From positions 1-43,362 of the forward strand of contig CAMGIP010000005.1 in the NCBI GenBank assembly GCA_946056155.1: a stretch of 43,362 nt of DNA. The letters run 5' to 3'. A model generated the notes under the pieces. That model was not told where the DNA came from. It saw only the letters and a list, made by a program, of their open reading frames with translations, and searched no databases. Positions within the stretch are counted from its first letter, which is position 1. Each line of letters starts with the position of its first letter. Source of the stretch: an uncultured Mediterranea sp. Lineage in GTDB: Bacteria > Bacteroidota > Bacteroidia > Bacteroidales > Bacteroidaceae. Positions 3 to 8,547 of this stretch are shown here, in pieces. The position numbers and the translations under genes were made by a program.

Positions 3-1145
3 GAAGGACTTATTGTACCGGACAGTAATGCCCGTGAGGCGGCTGTGGTCAACAAACTGAAGGTTTATGGTGCCCAATCGCTGAAGGAGGTGGTGGAGTT
101 CTTCAACGGCAAGGAGAGCCTGCAACCTACGATTATGGACACCCGTGCCGACTTCTACTCGCGCCAGACCGCCTTCGACTTTGACTTTGCCGAGGTGAAG
201 GGTCAAGAGAACGTGAAACGGGCTTTGGAGGTGGCCGCCGCAGGCAGTCACAACATCCTTCTGGTTGGCTCGCCGGGCAGCGGCAAGTCGATGCTGGCCA
301 AGCGACTTCCCTCCATACTCCCTCCCCTATCGCTCGCCGAGAGCTTGGAGACCACACAAATCCACTCCATAGCCGGCAAGATAGGGAGTGAAGGAGGCCT
401 CATCTCCGTCCGTCCCTTCCGGTCGCCCCACCACACCATATCATCAGTGGCCATGACCGGTGGCGGCAGCTATCCACAGCCCGGTGAAATCAGTCTGGCC
501 CACAACGGCATCCTCTATTTGGACGAGCTGCCCGAGTTCCAGCGTCAGGTCTTGGAGGTACTCCGTCAGCCCTTGGAGGACCGGAAAATCAGCGTCTCCC
601 GCGTGAAGTTCTCCGTAGAGTATCCCGCCAACTTCATGTTTGTAGCCTCGATGAACCCCTGTCCTTGCGGTTATTACACCCACCCCACCAAGCGTTGTGT
701 ATGCAATCCCGGTCAGGTACAGAAGTACCTCAACAAGATTTCGGGTCCCCTGCTCGACCGCATCGACCTGCAAATTGAGGTCGTGCCCGTACCCTTTGAG
801 AAGATGGCCGAACAGCAGCCCGGTGAGCCGAGTGCCGTCATCCGTGAGCGTGTCATCCGTGCCCGGCAGATCCAGGAGCAACGCTTTGCCTCCGTACCCG
901 GTGTACACAGCAACGCCCAAATGACCAGTCGCCTCATCAATGAGTATGCCCGTCCCGACCAGAAGGGTCTCGACCTGCTCAAGTATGCCATGTCCCGCCT
1001 CAACCTCTCCGCCCGTGCCTACGACCGCATCCTCAAGGTGGCCCGCACCATAGCCGACTTGGAGGGCAGCGAGCAGATCCAGACCAACCACCTGGCCGAA
1101 GCCATCGGCTACCGCAACCTTGACCGCGAGGATTGGGCAGGGTAA
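3..1145 (+). CDS. comM: Mg-chelatase-like / YifB-ComM family AAA+ ATPase, 5'-truncated by the window edge
   Basis: The frame is open from nt 3 (EGLIVPDSNAREAAVVNKLKVYGA...). Walker A GSPGSGKS, 'RPFRSPHHTISSVAMTGGG' and 'MNPCPCGYYTHPTKRCVCNP' are typical of ComM/YifB. Ends ...RNLDREDWAG*. Confidence 0.95.
   Translation, partial: EGLIVPDSNAREAAVVNKLKVYGAQSLKEVVEFFNGKESLQPTIMDTRADFYSRQTAFDFDFAEVKGQENVKRALEVAAAGSHNILLVGSPGSGKSMLAKRLPSILPPLSLAESLETTQIHSIAGKIGSEGGLISVRPFRSPHHTISSVAMTGGGSYPQPGEISLAHNGILYLDELPEFQRQVLEVLRQPLEDRKISVSRVKFSVEYPANFMFVASMNPCPCGYYTHPTKRCVCNPGQVQKYLNKISGPLLDRIDLQIEVVPVPFEKMAEQQPGEPSAVIRERVIRARQIQEQRFASVPGVHSNAQMTSRLINEYARPDQKGLDLLKYAMSRLNLSARAYDRILKVARTIADLEGSEQIQTNHLAEAIGYRNLDREDWAG
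1111..1145 (+). repeat. Direct repeat copy 1 (3' end of comM)
   Basis: accgcaaccttgaccgcgaggattgggcagggtaa; matches 2781-2815 at 33/35 positions. Confidence 0.95.
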
Positions 1146-1203
1146 TAATAGCCACTCCCCTCTTTCAGAATTCAAAATAATCTCATATTTTTGTTCAGAA
1201 AAT

Positions 1204-2766
1204 ATGGAGAACTGCACATTGAAAAGTTTGCCTGTCGGCATACAGACCTTTGAGAAAATTGTAGAGCAAGACCATTTGTACATCGACAAGACGGAATATA
1301 TCTACAAGATGCTGAAATTCAGCAGCTACATCTTTCTGAGCCGCCCTCGGCGGTTTGGCAAGTCGCTGCTGGTCTCCACCCTCCAGGCCTACTTCGAGGG
1401 GAGGAGGAAACTGTTCAAAGGTCTCTACATAGACCATGTGGAGAAGGAGTGGATAGCCTATCCCGTGATTAGACTCGATATGTCTATGGCCAAACATCTG
1501 GGAAAAGAGGAGTTAGAACGGATGCTGTTGTACATCATCGAACAGAACGAGCGGCGTTATGGTTTGACATCAACCCTTATCGACCCCAACCTTCGCTTGG
1601 CAAACCTTATTCAAGAGTTGCACACCCTCACCGGCAAAAAGGTGGTCGTCTTGATTGACGAATATGATGCCCCTTTGCTCGATGTGGTTCATGAGAAGGA
1701 AAGACTGCCCCAGCTCCGCCAGGTCATGCGCAACTTCTTCTCTCCTCTGAAGGCTTCTGACCCCCATTTGCAGTTTCTCTTTATCACCGGCATCACCAAA
1801 TTCTCACAACTCAGCATCTTCACCGAACTCAATAACCTGAAGAACATCTCTATGAACCCAGAGTTTGCAGCGGTGTGCGGCATCAGCGTGGAAGAGGTGC
1901 AGACACAAATGGCCGACTATCTCCAAGCGTTTGCCCAATCCAAGCAGAAAAGCCCTCAAGAGATACTTGACTCACTGAAACGACAGTACGACGGCTACCA
2001 CTTCACCTGGCCCTCGCCCGACATTTTCAACCCCTTCAGCCTGCTCAACTCATTGCAAGACAAGCAGATTAAGAGCTACTGGTTTGAGACAGGTACGCCA
2101 ACCTTCCTTATCGAAAAGCTTAAGGAGTATCAGGTATTGCCCTCCATGCTTAAGCCCACATGGGTCATGGCACCAGACTTTGATGCCCCCACGGAGAACA
2201 TGTCTTCTATCATGCCCCTACTCTACCAGGCAGGCTATTTCACGATCAAGGAGTATGATGAAATCAGCGATTTGTATCTGCTCAATCTCCCCAACAATGA
2301 GATACGCATCGGCCTGATGCAGAGCCTTCTGCCCAACTTTGTGCAGACAGATGCCATGCAAGGTAACACCACCATAGGCCTGATGAACAAGGCATTGCAG
2401 CAGGAGCAACTTGATGAGATGCTCAGACTCCTTCAGAGCTATCTGCTGACCGTTCCACAATGCGATAATACCAATTACGAAGGCCATTACCAGCAGTTAC
2501 TCTACGTCATCTTCTCTCTTCTAGGTCGCTATGTGGATGTAGAGGTACGCACCTCTGATGGTCGTGTGGATATGGTGATGAACTCCGGCAAAGCACTCTA
2601 CCTCTTCGAACTGAAGCTGAACCATACAGCTGAGGCAGCCATGAAGCAAATCAACTTGAAGGATTATCCCGCACGCTTCGCACTCAGCGGATTGCCCGTC
2701 ATCAAGGTAGGCATAAACTTCGATATGAAGCGACACACCCTCTCGGATTGGAGCATAGAGAAGTAA
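1204..2766 (+). CDS. AAA-ATPase_like / PD-(D/E)XK nuclease-domain protein (PF09820 + PF08011 type)
   Basis: ORF 1120-2766; likely start at 1204 (MENCTLKSLPVGIQTFEKI). Walker A-like SRPRRFGKSLLV, Walker B VVLIDEYDAPL, C-terminal GRVDMVM...LFELKL (D-ExK) nuclease motif. Confidence 0.9.
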   Translation: MENCTLKSLPVGIQTFEKIVEQDHLYIDKTEYIYKMLKFSSYIFLSRPRRFGKSLLVSTLQAYFEGRRKLFKGLYIDHVEKEWIAYPVIRLDMSMAKHLGKEELERMLLYIIEQNERRYGLTSTLIDPNLRLANLIQELHTLTGKKVVVLIDEYDAPLLDVVHEKERLPQLRQVMRNFFSPLKASDPHLQFLFITGITKFSQLSIFTELNNLKNISMNPEFAAVCGISVEEVQTQMADYLQAFAQSKQKSPQEILDSLKRQYDGYHFTWPSPDIFNPFSLLNSLQDKQIKSYWFETGTPTFLIEKLKEYQVLPSMLKPTWVMAPDFDAPTENMSSIMPLLYQAGYFTIKEYDEISDLYLLNLPNNEIRIGLMQSLLPNFVQTDAMQGNTTIGLMNKALQQEQLDEMLRLLQSYLLTVPQCDNTNYEGHYQQLLYVIFSLLGRYVDVEVRTSDGRVDMVMNSGKALYLFELKLNHTAEAAMKQINLKDYPARFALSGLPVIKVGINFDMKRHTLSDWSIEK

Positions 2767-2780
2767 CTTATCTGGATCAC

Positions 2781-2815
2781 ACCGCAACCTTGACCGCGAG
2801 GACTGGGCGGGGTAA
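2781..2815 (+). repeat. Direct repeat copy 2 (isolated comM 3' end after the ATPase/nuclease gene)
   Basis: accgcaaccttgaccgcgaggactgggcggggtaa; 33/35 identical to 1111-1145, with both differences at synonymous third codon positions. Confidence 0.95.
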
Positions 2816-3107
2816 ACGGAGATAGACAGGTGAAAATCTATTGATATTCTGAATAAATGAGGGCAGTCGTAAAATCAGATTAAAAGATACAACGGATTGA
2901 TTGCCAATGAAGCTGCTTTGGGAATGTACCGTAAGAACATACAAGGTGATGTGTGGCATCAGCTCCTGGCTGGACGAACATAGATTGGGAACGAAGTACA
3001 ACGAGGCCCATGCTACTCCCATTGTGGTCGTATTGGGAATACAAGAACGATGGGAGAAGGTTATGAAGATCTATAGTTTAACGCTTTTGACTTGCCATAG
3101 TCATTCC

Positions 3108-3611: not shown

Positions 3612-4002
3612 GATCGTTCAAAATTTTAACGTAAGCTCAATATAATATAAGTATCTGTAAATTTGTTGATTAGCGAAATGACTATAACTGTATAGTGTTC
3701 AAATACAAAGAATCACATACAATAATCGCTATGATCACCGAGGACAAAGTTACAGAATTATTTTGGATTGAACCGATAAAAATCCCTTATTTTCTTCGGG
3801 ATGAGTAAAAAACGATTCGGGAAATGCCAGAGCGTGGAGGGTTGGGGCATCTACACAGTTCCCCGCGGGCATACAATATAACAAGCCCTGTTGCCTGAAT
3901 TCAGTTTGTGCGTACTACATTCGTCCTTTGAGTCTGAAGATGGGATAGTTACTCTATGAACAGTCAGTCAGTTTGCCTTTGAAATCGCCTCAGTTGAGGT
4001 GT

Positions 4003-4134: not shown

Positions 4135-4335
4135 TCTTCGGGAGCTATACGGCCAGTTCATTCCGCCAACATACTATATATAATAAGGTATAGAAAGAAG
4201 CAGAGAACTGAAGTGGAAGGAGTACGCGGCGGCTCTTGGACAAATTTGCCATGCGTTGGAACAGGATTGACAGCCGGCCGGACAGAATTGCCTGTATAAA
4301 AGACAAGATTGGAGCGAGGTGTGGAAAATAACCGC

Positions 4336-4343
4336 TACTTTTG
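4336..4343 (+). promoter_or_regulatory. Bacteroides-type -7 box (TACTTTTG) upstream of the lyase gene
   Basis: Matches TAnnTTTG, about 60 bp before the likely start codon. Confidence 0.55.
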
Positions 4344-4407
4344 CAGCCGTGAGAAACACTCACACGGCTTTGCCTCATCTCGTCTAACTCACTCTATTGA
4401 AATGCTC

Positions 4408-7008
4408 ATGAAAAAAATCGGCTACCTCATCTGCCTGCTGCTCGCAACCACCACCCTTCAGGCACAACCCAACATCAGACTGACCGCTACCTCGCTCATG
4501 CACGAGACGCGTGTCACCCCACAACCGGCCAACGAGACCTTGCTGACCGACCGCTTCGTCTCCTTCCAATGGCCTCTGCCCGTAGAGGCACGTCCCCAAG
4601 GGGCACGACTGGACGGATTTGAACAACCGGTCAAGAAGATAGAGAAGAGCAAGCTGGCCTACAAAATCCGCTTTGCACAAGATGCCCAATTCAAGAAGGG
4701 AAAGGTAGAGGCCGACACCCACTGGCCCCTCTTCAACCCTGAGAAACCGTTGGCCGAGGGTACCTGGTACTGGCAATACGGCTATGTGAAGGAGGGCAAG
4801 ACCGAGTGGAGCGAGGTGCTGACCTTCACCGTAGGCGACAACGGGCAGAAATTCTGTCCGCCGTCGTACAAGGAGGCCATCACCAAACTGCCCGCCACCC
4901 ATCCGCGCATCTGGGTGGAGAAGGAGAACTGGAAGCAGTTCATCGCCAAGGCACAAGGCAAGGTGGAGTACCAGTGGTACATCGAACGAGCCGACAAGGT
5001 ACTGCAGACCCCCATGAAGAGCGTCAAGGATATCAACACCAACCAGGTAAAGAACCTAACCAATGAGGTGCAAATCAACTCCTACCTCACCCGCGAAAGC
5101 CGTCGCATCATCGATGCCGAGGAGAGCAATACCGAGGCTTTGATACGGAGCTACATCCTCACTCGGGAGAGGAAGTATAGCGACGAGGCCATCCGGCGTG
5201 TCTTCACGATGATGAACTGGGACAAGGAGAAGAATGTGAAGGGCGACTTCAACGCCTCGGCCCTGCTCTCGCTCTGCTCCATGGCCTATGACACCTTCTA
5301 CAACATCCTCACCTCCGACCAGCGTCAGACGCTGTTGGAGGCTATTCGGGTGAAGGGCACGGAGATGTACGACCACTTCAACAACTACTTGGAGAACCAC
5401 ATTGCCGAGAACCACATCTGGCAGATGACCTTCCGCATCCTCACCATGGCGGCATTCAGCACCTACGGCGACCTGCCCGAAGCTGCTGTCTGGACCAACT
5501 ACTGCTACAACGTCTGGCTGGCCCGCTTCCCCGGTCTGAACAAGGATGGCGGATGGCACAACGGCGACTCCTACTTCACGGTGAACACCCGCACACTCAT
5601 CGAGGTGCCCTACTTCTACAGCCGCCTCACTGGCTTTGACTTTTTCAGTGACCCCTGGTATGCCAACAACGTGATGTACACCATCTTCCAGCAGCCCCCC
5701 TTCTCCAAGTCGGGCGGCAACGGCAGCAGTCACCAGAACGTGACACGCCCCAACAGCACCCGTATCGGCTACCTCGATGCCTTGGCCCGTCTGTTGGGCA
5801 ACAGTTATGCCGCCGACTTCGTGCGCCGCACCTTGGCCGTAGAGCCCGACTATCTGAAAAAGGCACTGCTCAACAAGCCGGGCGACCTCGCTTGGTTCCG
5901 CCTGCAGTGCGACAAGCCGCTACCCGAAGGTCCGGGTCTCACCGCCCTTCCCTCCGGTTATATCTTCCCCGAGACGGGAGTGGCCTCGTTCCTCACCAAC
6001 TGGGACCGGGTGGGCAGCAACGCCATGTGGAGCTTCCGCAGCAGCCCCTACGGATCCACCTCACACGCCATAGCCAACCAGAACGCCTTCAACACCTTCT
6101 TCGGCGGCAAGCCTATCTTCTACAGCAGCGGGCACCACATCGCCTTTACCGATATACACAGCATGTTGTGCCACCGAGCTACCCGCAGCCACAACACCAT
6201 CTTGGTGAACGGCATGGGGCAGCGCATCGGTGTAGAGGGTTATGGCTGGATACCTCGCTACTACGCAGGCGAGAAGATTGGCTACGTGCTGGGCGATGCC
6301 TCCAATGCCTACGGCAAGGTCATCTCTCCGCTCTGGCTGCAACGGGGCAAGGAGAGCGGAGTGTCATACACACCGGAGAACGGATGGGACGATGTGCCAC
6401 TGACCAAATACCGCCGCCACATCGTCAACTTGGGCAAGTCGGGCTACATCTTCATCTACGACGAGTTGGAGAGCCGCGAACCAGCCGACTACACCTTCAT
6501 GCTCCACACCGTGGCAGAGCCCATGACCGTGGAAAGTGACAACCCCCGCTTTGTCCATGTGCAGGGTCTCTCCGGACGGGGAGGAGCCTCGGATGCCTAT
6601 CTCTTCTCCACAGGCAAACTGCAGACCGACTCCACATCGCGCTTCTTCGTACCTGCCCACAACTGGCTGCGTGCCGATGCCAAGGGCAACTTTACCCAAT
6701 ACTCCAACCACTGGCACTTCACGGCCAAGTCGGAGAAGGCCAAGGTCTATCGTTTTGCCACCATCATCCACACCCATGCCCTGAAGCATCCGAGCAAAGA
6801 GCCTGAGATACTGGAGGATGGCCGCATCAAGATACCCGGCTGGCTCATCAGCGTCAACCTCAAGGGAAGCGGTGCCCCCTCCTTCTTTATCCGCAGTACC
6901 CAGAAGGAGGGGACGGTAAACATCACCTACAAGGGGCAAGAGACCATCGTGGTAGAAGAGGACAAGCAGACCACCTTAGAGGACATCGTACCAGAGCTGG
7001 AGATATAA
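4408..7008 (+). CDS. Secreted heparinase II/III-like polysaccharide lyase (DUF4962-type)
   Basis: ORF 4309-7008; likely start 4402 or 4408 (MKKIGYLICLLLATTTLQAQ signal peptide). Long alpha-helical N-terminal half, then the heparinase II/III-like C-terminal motif (ATRSHNTILVNGMGQ). Confidence 0.85.
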   Translation: MKKIGYLICLLLATTTLQAQPNIRLTATSLMHETRVTPQPANETLLTDRFVSFQWPLPVEARPQGARLDGFEQPVKKIEKSKLAYKIRFAQDAQFKKGKVEADTHWPLFNPEKPLAEGTWYWQYGYVKEGKTEWSEVLTFTVGDNGQKFCPPSYKEAITKLPATHPRIWVEKENWKQFIAKAQGKVEYQWYIERADKVLQTPMKSVKDINTNQVKNLTNEVQINSYLTRESRRIIDAEESNTEALIRSYILTRERKYSDEAIRRVFTMMNWDKEKNVKGDFNASALLSLCSMAYDTFYNILTSDQRQTLLEAIRVKGTEMYDHFNNYLENHIAENHIWQMTFRILTMAAFSTYGDLPEAAVWTNYCYNVWLARFPGLNKDGGWHNGDSYFTVNTRTLIEVPYFYSRLTGFDFFSDPWYANNVMYTIFQQPPFSKSGGNGSSHQNVTRPNSTRIGYLDALARLLGNSYAADFVRRTLAVEPDYLKKALLNKPGDLAWFRLQCDKPLPEGPGLTALPSGYIFPETGVASFLTNWDRVGSNAMWSFRSSPYGSTSHAIANQNAFNTFFGGKPIFYSSGHHIAFTDIHSMLCHRATRSHNTILVNGMGQRIGVEGYGWIPRYYAGEKIGYVLGDASNAYGKVISPLWLQRGKESGVSYTPENGWDDVPLTKYRRHIVNLGKSGYIFIYDELESREPADYTFMLHTVAEPMTVESDNPRFVHVQGLSGRGGASDAYLFSTGKLQTDSTSRFFVPAHNWLRADAKGNFTQYSNHWHFTAKSEKAKVYRFATIIHTHALKHPSKEPEILEDGRIKIPGWLISVNLKGSGAPSFFIRSTQKEGTVNITYKGQETIVVEEDKQTTLEDIVPELEI

Positions 7009-7062: not shown

Positions 7063-8547
7063 TTACTCCTGCTGATGCTGCCCCAACCAGATACTCCTCA
7101 TGGGCCAAGCAGACAGCTTGATCCTGCTCTTGCCCGAGAGCGAAAAGAGGCTGGCACCACACTGCTGGGGAGCTGCAAAGGTGAGCAGCGAGCACACTGA
7201 TGCCCCATCATTGACAAACAGCTCGATGGTGGACTTGTCAACAAACAGGTGCAACTTCACCACCCCATCTACAGGGGAGACCTTATGGTGGGCCACACGG
7301 CTGAATTTATCTATCTCTGCATCGGTAGAGTGGGTACGGTCTATCAGGAGTGTACCCGAACTGGTATCATAGCTCACCACCACTTTCCGTCCATCCACTT
7401 CGCAGAGGTGGAACCCCACCACATCATTGCCATTAGGCTGGATTTCAGCCAGAAGCTCATACGTATTGTCCATCTTTGAGATTTCCGGCAAGGGTGAAAT
7501 GCCAGGCTTCAACCTGCGTGATGAGTAGTATTCGGCTCCCCGCAAGGATTGCAGTGCTTCGCAAGGGGTCTGATAAAGCCGCAACCCCTGCGGTGTGGAG
7601 CGCAACGTGTACTCGCGTGGAATGGACCAGATGCCCTTGCCGTACGTGGTTGGGGCCGTAGTGGCATAATCCCAAGTGTTGACCCACCCTATCGTATATA
7701 CCTTATCGGCATCATTATCATAATTCTGAAAAACGCGCGAAGCGTAATAGTCCAGTCCCTCATCAAGGTAAAGAGGAGCAGCATTGGGCTGGTCAGGGAT
7801 GAATTGCTCCCCATCAAAATCACCTACAAAATACTGTTCGCGTGCCCAGTTGACCGAAATCACCAGCACCCATTTTTTCACCTCAGGATTTCCATCCACA
7901 CAAACCTGAAACAGGTCCGGACATTCCCATGAACGTTCCGAGTCGCCCATAGGTCCGAAATCACTCATCCAGCTCCACTGTTTCAGGTCAGCCGATTGGT
8001 AAAAAGCAACCTTCTTCTCCAAAGCCTTGGCTACGAGCATCACCCAGCGCTGGTTCTTTTCATCCCAGATTACCGTGGGGTCACGGAACTCGGTGCTCCA
8101 TATATCAAGCACAGGATTGAGGTCGAAATATTGGAAAGTAACCCCCTTGTCGAGGCTGAAAGCAATGGATTGAGACTGCTTCTTCGAGGCTTCGTCAAAC
8201 GATGTGAAGGCGGCGATTGGCGTATTCACGCCATAGCCAGCGGTGTTTTGGCGATCAATGACCACACTACCGGTAAAGGGGGCAATGCCCTTAGGCAGTT
8301 GGGTGATGGCATTGTCGTTCAGCTCCTTCCAGTGCACCAAGTCGGTGGTTTCTGCTGCCCCCCAGCAATACGCCAAGTACTTGCCGTTGAATTTGATGAG
8401 TCCACAAGGGTCGCCAATCCAGCGGTGAGCCGGAGTATAGTGATACTGGGGACGATACTTTTCGTTATACAATTCTTGCGAATCTTGCGAAGAAGCGTTG
8501 CCGGCTAACAGGAGCAACAGCATGTAGAGGGTTACAAATCGTTTCAT
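7063..8547 (-). CDS. Glycoside hydrolase family 32 (fructan-type hydrolase)
   Basis: YHYTPAHRWIGDPCGLIKFNGKYLAYCWG (WMNDPNG-like block), EFRDPTVIW (RDP block), SWECPDLF (EC block); signal peptide. Confidence 0.9.
   Translation of the reverse strand: MKRFVTLYMLLLLLAGNASSQDSQELYNEKYRPQYHYTPAHRWIGDPCGLIKFNGKYLAYCWGAAETTDLVHWKELNDNAITQLPKGIAPFTGSVVIDRQNTAGYGVNTPIAAFTSFDEASKKQSQSIAFSLDKGVTFQYFDLNPVLDIWSTEFRDPTVIWDEKNQRWVMLVAKALEKKVAFYQSADLKQWSWMSDFGPMGDSERSWECPDLFQVCVDGNPEVKKWVLVISVNWAREQYFVGDFDGEQFIPDQPNAAPLYLDEGLDYYASRVFQNYDNDADKVYTIGWVNTWDYATTAPTTYGKGIWSIPREYTLRSTPQGLRLYQTPCEALQSLRGAEYYSSRRLKPGISPLPEISKMDNTYELLAEIQPNGNDVVGFHLCEVDGRKVVVSYDTSSGTLLIDRTHSTDAEIDKFSRVAHHKVSPVDGVVKLHLFVDKSTIELFVNDGASVCSLLTFAAPQQCGASLFSLSGKSRIKLSAWPMRSIWLGQHQQE

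Follow-up and report, generated by a model that had tools for sequence, protein, structure and literature searches.

Certain integrative elements, among them integrase-dependent genomic islands, IMEs and CIMEs, target a conserved gene at its 3' end and leave it restored after insertion. The locus analysed here lies at the beginning of a 43,362-nucleotide stretch of DNA from an uncultured Mediterranea sp. (contig CAMGIP010000005.1 of assembly GCA_946056155.1), which is referred to in its full length as the window. It resembles these elements in that a direct repeat reproduces the end of its target gene, comM, including the stop codon, with a cargo gene located between the two copies. Unlike them, however, it lacks both a recombinase and an excision module, has no second occupied site and showed no exact empty site in the relatives compared. 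The cargo belongs to the DUF1703 family, whose expansion and recombination, horizontal transfer and occurrence on plasmids are described in parts of a published account, together with its multicopy occurrence in Cardinium and other bacteria (PMC6387759). As far as these parts go, the gene in the window shares the domain architecture, the intact motifs, the multicopy state and the signs of horizontal transfer of that family, whereas duplicated gene ends, such as the one found here, are not among the features they report. A further parallel is provided by a duplication of the comM-GH32 region in a related genome (G155), which likewise has left an orphan copy of the comM 3' end behind comM. There, however, the repeat continues into the intergenic region and the promoter of the GH32 gene, whereas the repeat in the window stops at the stop codon and encloses a different gene.

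The relevant part of the window is organized as follows:

3..1145, + strand: comM (YifB-family Mg-chelatase-like AAA ATPase; PF01078, PF13335, TIGR00368), with its 5' end beyond the contig edge
1111..1145, + strand: repeat copy 1, the functional comM end (35 bp, stop codon included)
1146..1203, + strand: AT-rich spacer of 58 bp (29% GC) between the comM stop and the ATPase start
1204..2766, + strand: gene for a DUF1703-type protein of 520 aa, with PF09820 (AAA-ATPase_like) and PF08011 (PDDEXK_9) and intact motifs
2781..2815, + strand: repeat copy 2, an orphan comM 3' end that matches copy 1 at 33/35 positions, with two synonymous differences
2816..2860, no strand: stretch of 45 bp behind copy 2
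2861..3004, + strand: insertion-sequence relic, composed of a terminal end (2861-2909) and, joined to it, a fragment from inside the transposase gene (2908-3004)
3007..3051, + strand: short intergenic relic with two more occurrences elsewhere in the genome
3108..3611, - strand: gene for a DUF805 membrane protein
4309..7008, + strand: gene for a DUF4962 / heparinase II/III-like protein
7063..8547, - strand: GH32 gene

The duplication of the comM end, initially claimed in a sequence-only reading of the locus, was confirmed. The two copies are spaced by 1670 bp and show 94% identity, with two mismatches (GAT/GAC and GCA/GCG) that leave the translation of each copy as RNLDREDWAG*. In a search of the whole 2.64-Mb assembly, copy 2 was recovered with an E value of 5.4e-9, a similarity far above chance. 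Its edges are abrupt, since it begins 14 bp 3' of the ATPase stop and its last bases are exactly those of the stop codon, and the likeness between the copies breaks off sharply at either side. The same reading had stated that nothing upstream of copy 2 resembles comM, and indeed the window contains no further comM-like sequence, with the next best match to copy 2 reaching 21/35; moreover, copy 2 does not belong to any other conserved gene. The exclusively synonymous mismatches weakly suggest that both copies diverged as working comM ends. Their weight is small because, for two random transitions within the 35-bp repeat, the chance that neither alters the protein is about 12% (roughly one case in eight). 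The combination of repeat and ATPase gene is real and confined to one lineage.

The protein encoded between the two copies matches PF09820 in its N-terminal part (E = 1e-66, 224.6 bits, Pfam cut-off 26.1) and PF08011 in its C-terminal part (E = 6e-17, 62.0 bits, Pfam cut-off 25.5). It contains a Walker A motif (RPRRFGKS, at position 47) and a Walker B motif (LIDEYD, at 150) and has kept the D...ELK motif of PD-(D/E)XK nucleases (GRVDMVM at 453 and ELKL at 469); the PADLOC anti-phage defence models did not match it up to E = 1. The spacer preceding the gene carries a Bacteroides-type -7-like TATTTTTG just 5' of the ATPase start, which may represent the promoter of this gene, and shows no clear match to the sequence downstream of comM in relatives. 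Seven PF09820 matches are present in the genome, so that the family is multicopy in this organism as well. In a quick tree, the protein from the window and a paralog belong to a clade made up largely of sequences from Prevotella and other Bacteroidales and are separate from most members of the genus, and relatives of the ATPase are found on Bacteroides and Parabacteroides plasmid records. A horizontal origin of the gene is plausible, without any tie to the repeat.

When a degenerate comM-tail motif, which misses some variants, was scanned over 160 genomes of the genus, at least one match was obtained in 85 of them, and two matches only in the genome containing the window (G000). We also compared 53 comM loci with at least 600 bp of downstream sequence, the window included, by searching each tail against its own downstream region. 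Only two loci had a second tail, the window with 33/35 and G155 with 30/35 matches, while all other loci reached at most 22/35. None of the 52 other loci has a member of the DUF1703 ATPase family directly behind comM; in G153, a relative with 37% identity is the second gene behind comM. Because of this absence and the dual motif matches unique among the 160 genomes, the gene was probably gained in the lineage of the window. An empty site, with the comM stop running straight into the sequence from 2816 onward, had been predicted, but none was found in any of the relatives examined; G155 lacks the ATPase and is rearranged. Likewise, the 45 bp behind copy 2 do not match any sequence in the relatives, including that downstream of their comM genes. 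In G033 (L051), an unrelated AAA ATPase gene separates comM from its next neighbour, in a gap that is empty in G002 (L050) and G015 (L048), and no repeat of the comM end flanks this inserted gene. The sequence downstream of comM in G011 includes the C-terminal remnant of another ATP-binding protein. The notion of the comM end as a hotspot for AAA ATPases, as occupied in G000, in G033, by the remnant in G011 and by the second gene in G153, was dropped, as the number of cases among the 53 loci is not clearly above chance; genes of this type are probably common enough for a few to occur near comM by chance.

It had further been proposed that other ATPase paralogs might be flanked by duplicated 3' gene ends and that the locus could show how the family spreads. 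Strong direct repeats flank 9 of the 61 ATPase loci with enough flanking sequence, compared with 6 of 179 control genes from the same contigs. Two of these nine loci are located in the genome of the window (the window itself and contig C16), one owes its repeat to a MITE (L147) and one to a promoter/hairpin repeat (L127), and the others represent tandem paralog arrays or promoters common to them. Among 28 further loci of the genus, no non-tandem repeat rose above the threshold, only tandem arrays being recovered, and no comparable unique repeat was found in about 87 other ATPase loci, except for one paralog in the same genome. The repeats are thus not a general mark of the family, and we rejected att-like spread as a general trait of it. 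The paralog on C16 (L079, G000:C16:29418-31382) is the one nearest to the protein in the window (72% aa identity) and lies between two terminator-region copies that are 81% alike and occur nowhere else in the genome; in relatives, the orthologs of the flanking transporter genes are followed by unrelated sequence, and no empty site emerged there. Two side observations concern the family at large: at least five DUF1703 genes are arranged in tandem in L268 (G182:C1:1843093-1850998), and a MITE-like element with the inverted ends AGGTRGGTTCTATAAATT lies beside ATPase genes in other Bacteroidales (L145, L147 and L153).

As the leading reading, held tentatively and at somewhat less than an even chance, we propose that the 3' end of comM underwent one recombination, which brought in the DUF1703 gene together with a comM-like end. 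The gene, equipped with its own promoter, would have entered the gap behind comM in the lineage of the window, on DNA that carried, or was joined via, a short comM-like end. After a crossover inside this end, comM would have been complete on the upstream side of the gene, with an orphan comM end of 35 bp on its downstream side, and the region behind the orphan end would afterwards have been eroded by IS insertion and deletions. A single event is favoured because both copies are abruptly bounded and the gene lies exactly between them, and we infer that it gave rise to the insertion and the repeat alike. As to its nature, we favour homologous or short-homology recombination over the action of a dedicated recombinase. 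We counted in support of this recombination the strength of the repeat, the occurrence of the arrangement in this lineage only, the synonymous differences (as weak evidence), the history of the family across Bacteroidales (the Prevotella-type placement and the plasmid records), the repeat around the C16 paralog and the occupied and empty states of the gap in G033 and its relatives. Counted against it were the failure to find an exact empty site, the unmatched stretch 2816..2860, the presence of a tail copy without the ATPase in G155, the fact that repeats are not general around the family, the lack of a comM-end repeat at the insert in G033 and the expectation of AAA-ATPase neighbours by chance.

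A close rival, nearly as likely as a single recombination and quite possible in its own right, is that a segment with its start inside the comM 3' end underwent tandem duplication and most of the extra copy was then deleted, with the ATPase gene having arrived or lain there independently. The orphan tail would then be a relic and no mark of mobility. Exactly such a course is seen in G155, whose comM is the most similar to that of the window (87% aa identity). In this genome, a GH32 gene 82% identical to the gene at 7063-8547 follows 268 bp after the comM stop, whereas the corresponding interval in the window spans 5.9 kb and holds the ATPase gene, copy 2, the IS relic and the DUF805 and DUF4962 genes; since GH32 is only 268 bp away from the comM stop, G155 has no ATPase at the corresponding position. 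The second comM tail of G155 (L206, contig C47) is located beyond GH32, 1985-2019 bp after the comM stop, and its changes are mostly non-synonymous. Its surroundings are repeated as well: offsets -49 to 200 match 1970-2208 (66%; 261 bp), and the GH32 promoter at offsets 1768-1876 recurs at 2300-2408 (83% over 109 bp), so that in the second unit the promoter and the comM tail are still recognisable and the GH32 body is missing. As judged from this arrangement, the second tail clearly stems from a tandem duplication that started inside the comM 3' end and was followed by deletion of the second GH32 copy, and an orphan comM end therefore needs no cassette.

Consistent with a similar course in the window, G155 and G000 are the sole loci with a tail copy among the 53 compared, a decayed tandem paralog has left behind a 3' end in L123, and the region after copy 2 is full of relics. 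Positions 2861-3051 form a mosaic of IS and intergenic relics in pieces of 45-100 bp, and the region has clearly been broken and rejoined several times. These pieces were also considered as an array of gene ends, an idea rejected in view of their identity as relics. Further downstream, a segment of about 142 bp upstream of the DUF805 gene (3627-3768) recurs in many genomes of the genus, often twice in each, and the segment 3876-4170 has a copy at 87% on contig C112. Duplication and decay is weakened, however, by the observation that the sequences after the two tails of G000 are dissimilar, unlike those in G155, and by its need for a pair of events that both broke at the comM stop. Moreover, the duplication in G155 is suggested to be independent of the repeat in the window because its GH32 promoters resemble each other (83%) more than that of the window (~54%). 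One ancestral tandem duplication shared by G000 and G155, although possible, gained no support from the GH32 promoters (18 versus 21 informative sites).

Site-specific integration, with the comM 3' end as the attachment site, the 35-bp copies as attL and attR and a recombinase acting in trans, appears unlikely. The insert would in this case be an element of a single gene without its own recombinase, or else what is left of a larger integrative element. The layout agrees with gene-end integration, and the comM end of G011 coincides with an assembly break: the comM contig stops within the last comM codons, where contigs C57 and C75 (L043, L042) overlap by 55 bp, as at a fork in an assembly graph. 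In addition, G000 and G011 agree at 58 of 59 positions in the comM tail, while the preceding 600 bp are 73% identical, a contrast unmatched by any other of the 666 pairs (3.5 standard deviations) and yet borderline because so many pairs were compared. On the other hand, there is no recombinase in or beside the ATPase unit, inspection by eye of the first ORFs that follow comM in relatives revealed no tyrosine recombinase, and the family as a whole is devoid of such repeats. The phage and plasmid collections contained no element with this comM tail, the single match in the phage collection being a bacterial chromosome contig, and the titles and abstracts listed by a literature search yielded nothing usable on comM as an integration site in Bacteroides. 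The att-like cassette originally proposed is only partly supported: the flanking repeat stands and the gene looks like a newcomer, while no exact empty site was found in relatives and, apart from the C16 paralog, no comparable recurrence at other loci. A mobility reading is possible for the locus in the window alone, and as an account of the whole family it lacks support. It is distinctly improbable that the comM 3' end serves as an attachment site for an unseen integrative element in the Bacteroides/Mediterranea group, with DUF1703 genes travelling as one-gene cassettes that have no recombinase and rely on that of the element, and with the window and the break in G011 as two traces of it.

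It is highly improbable that the arrangement is an artefact of assembling or binning this metagenome-derived genome: the bin is 81% complete and contains a second comM (65% aa identity) on a contig that ends at the comM 3' end (G000:C202, L044) and is probably a contamination, but the GH32 gene of the window lies near comM in G155 too, and a 35-bp repeat, being shorter than usual assembly k-mers, is not expected to cause a false join.

Collectively, the locus does not prove a new kind of gene mobility and more probably represents a scar left by ordinary recombination or duplication. As illustrated by G155, caution is warranted, since local duplication and decay can yield an orphan gene end that imitates an att site. 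In gut Bacteroidales, ATPase/nuclease genes of the DUF1703 type abound and occur in multiple copies, with no established role or route of spreading. If true, the entry of a recombinase-less cassette into gene ends would be a new route of mobility, for which the locus in the window, without establishing it, provides a testable case.
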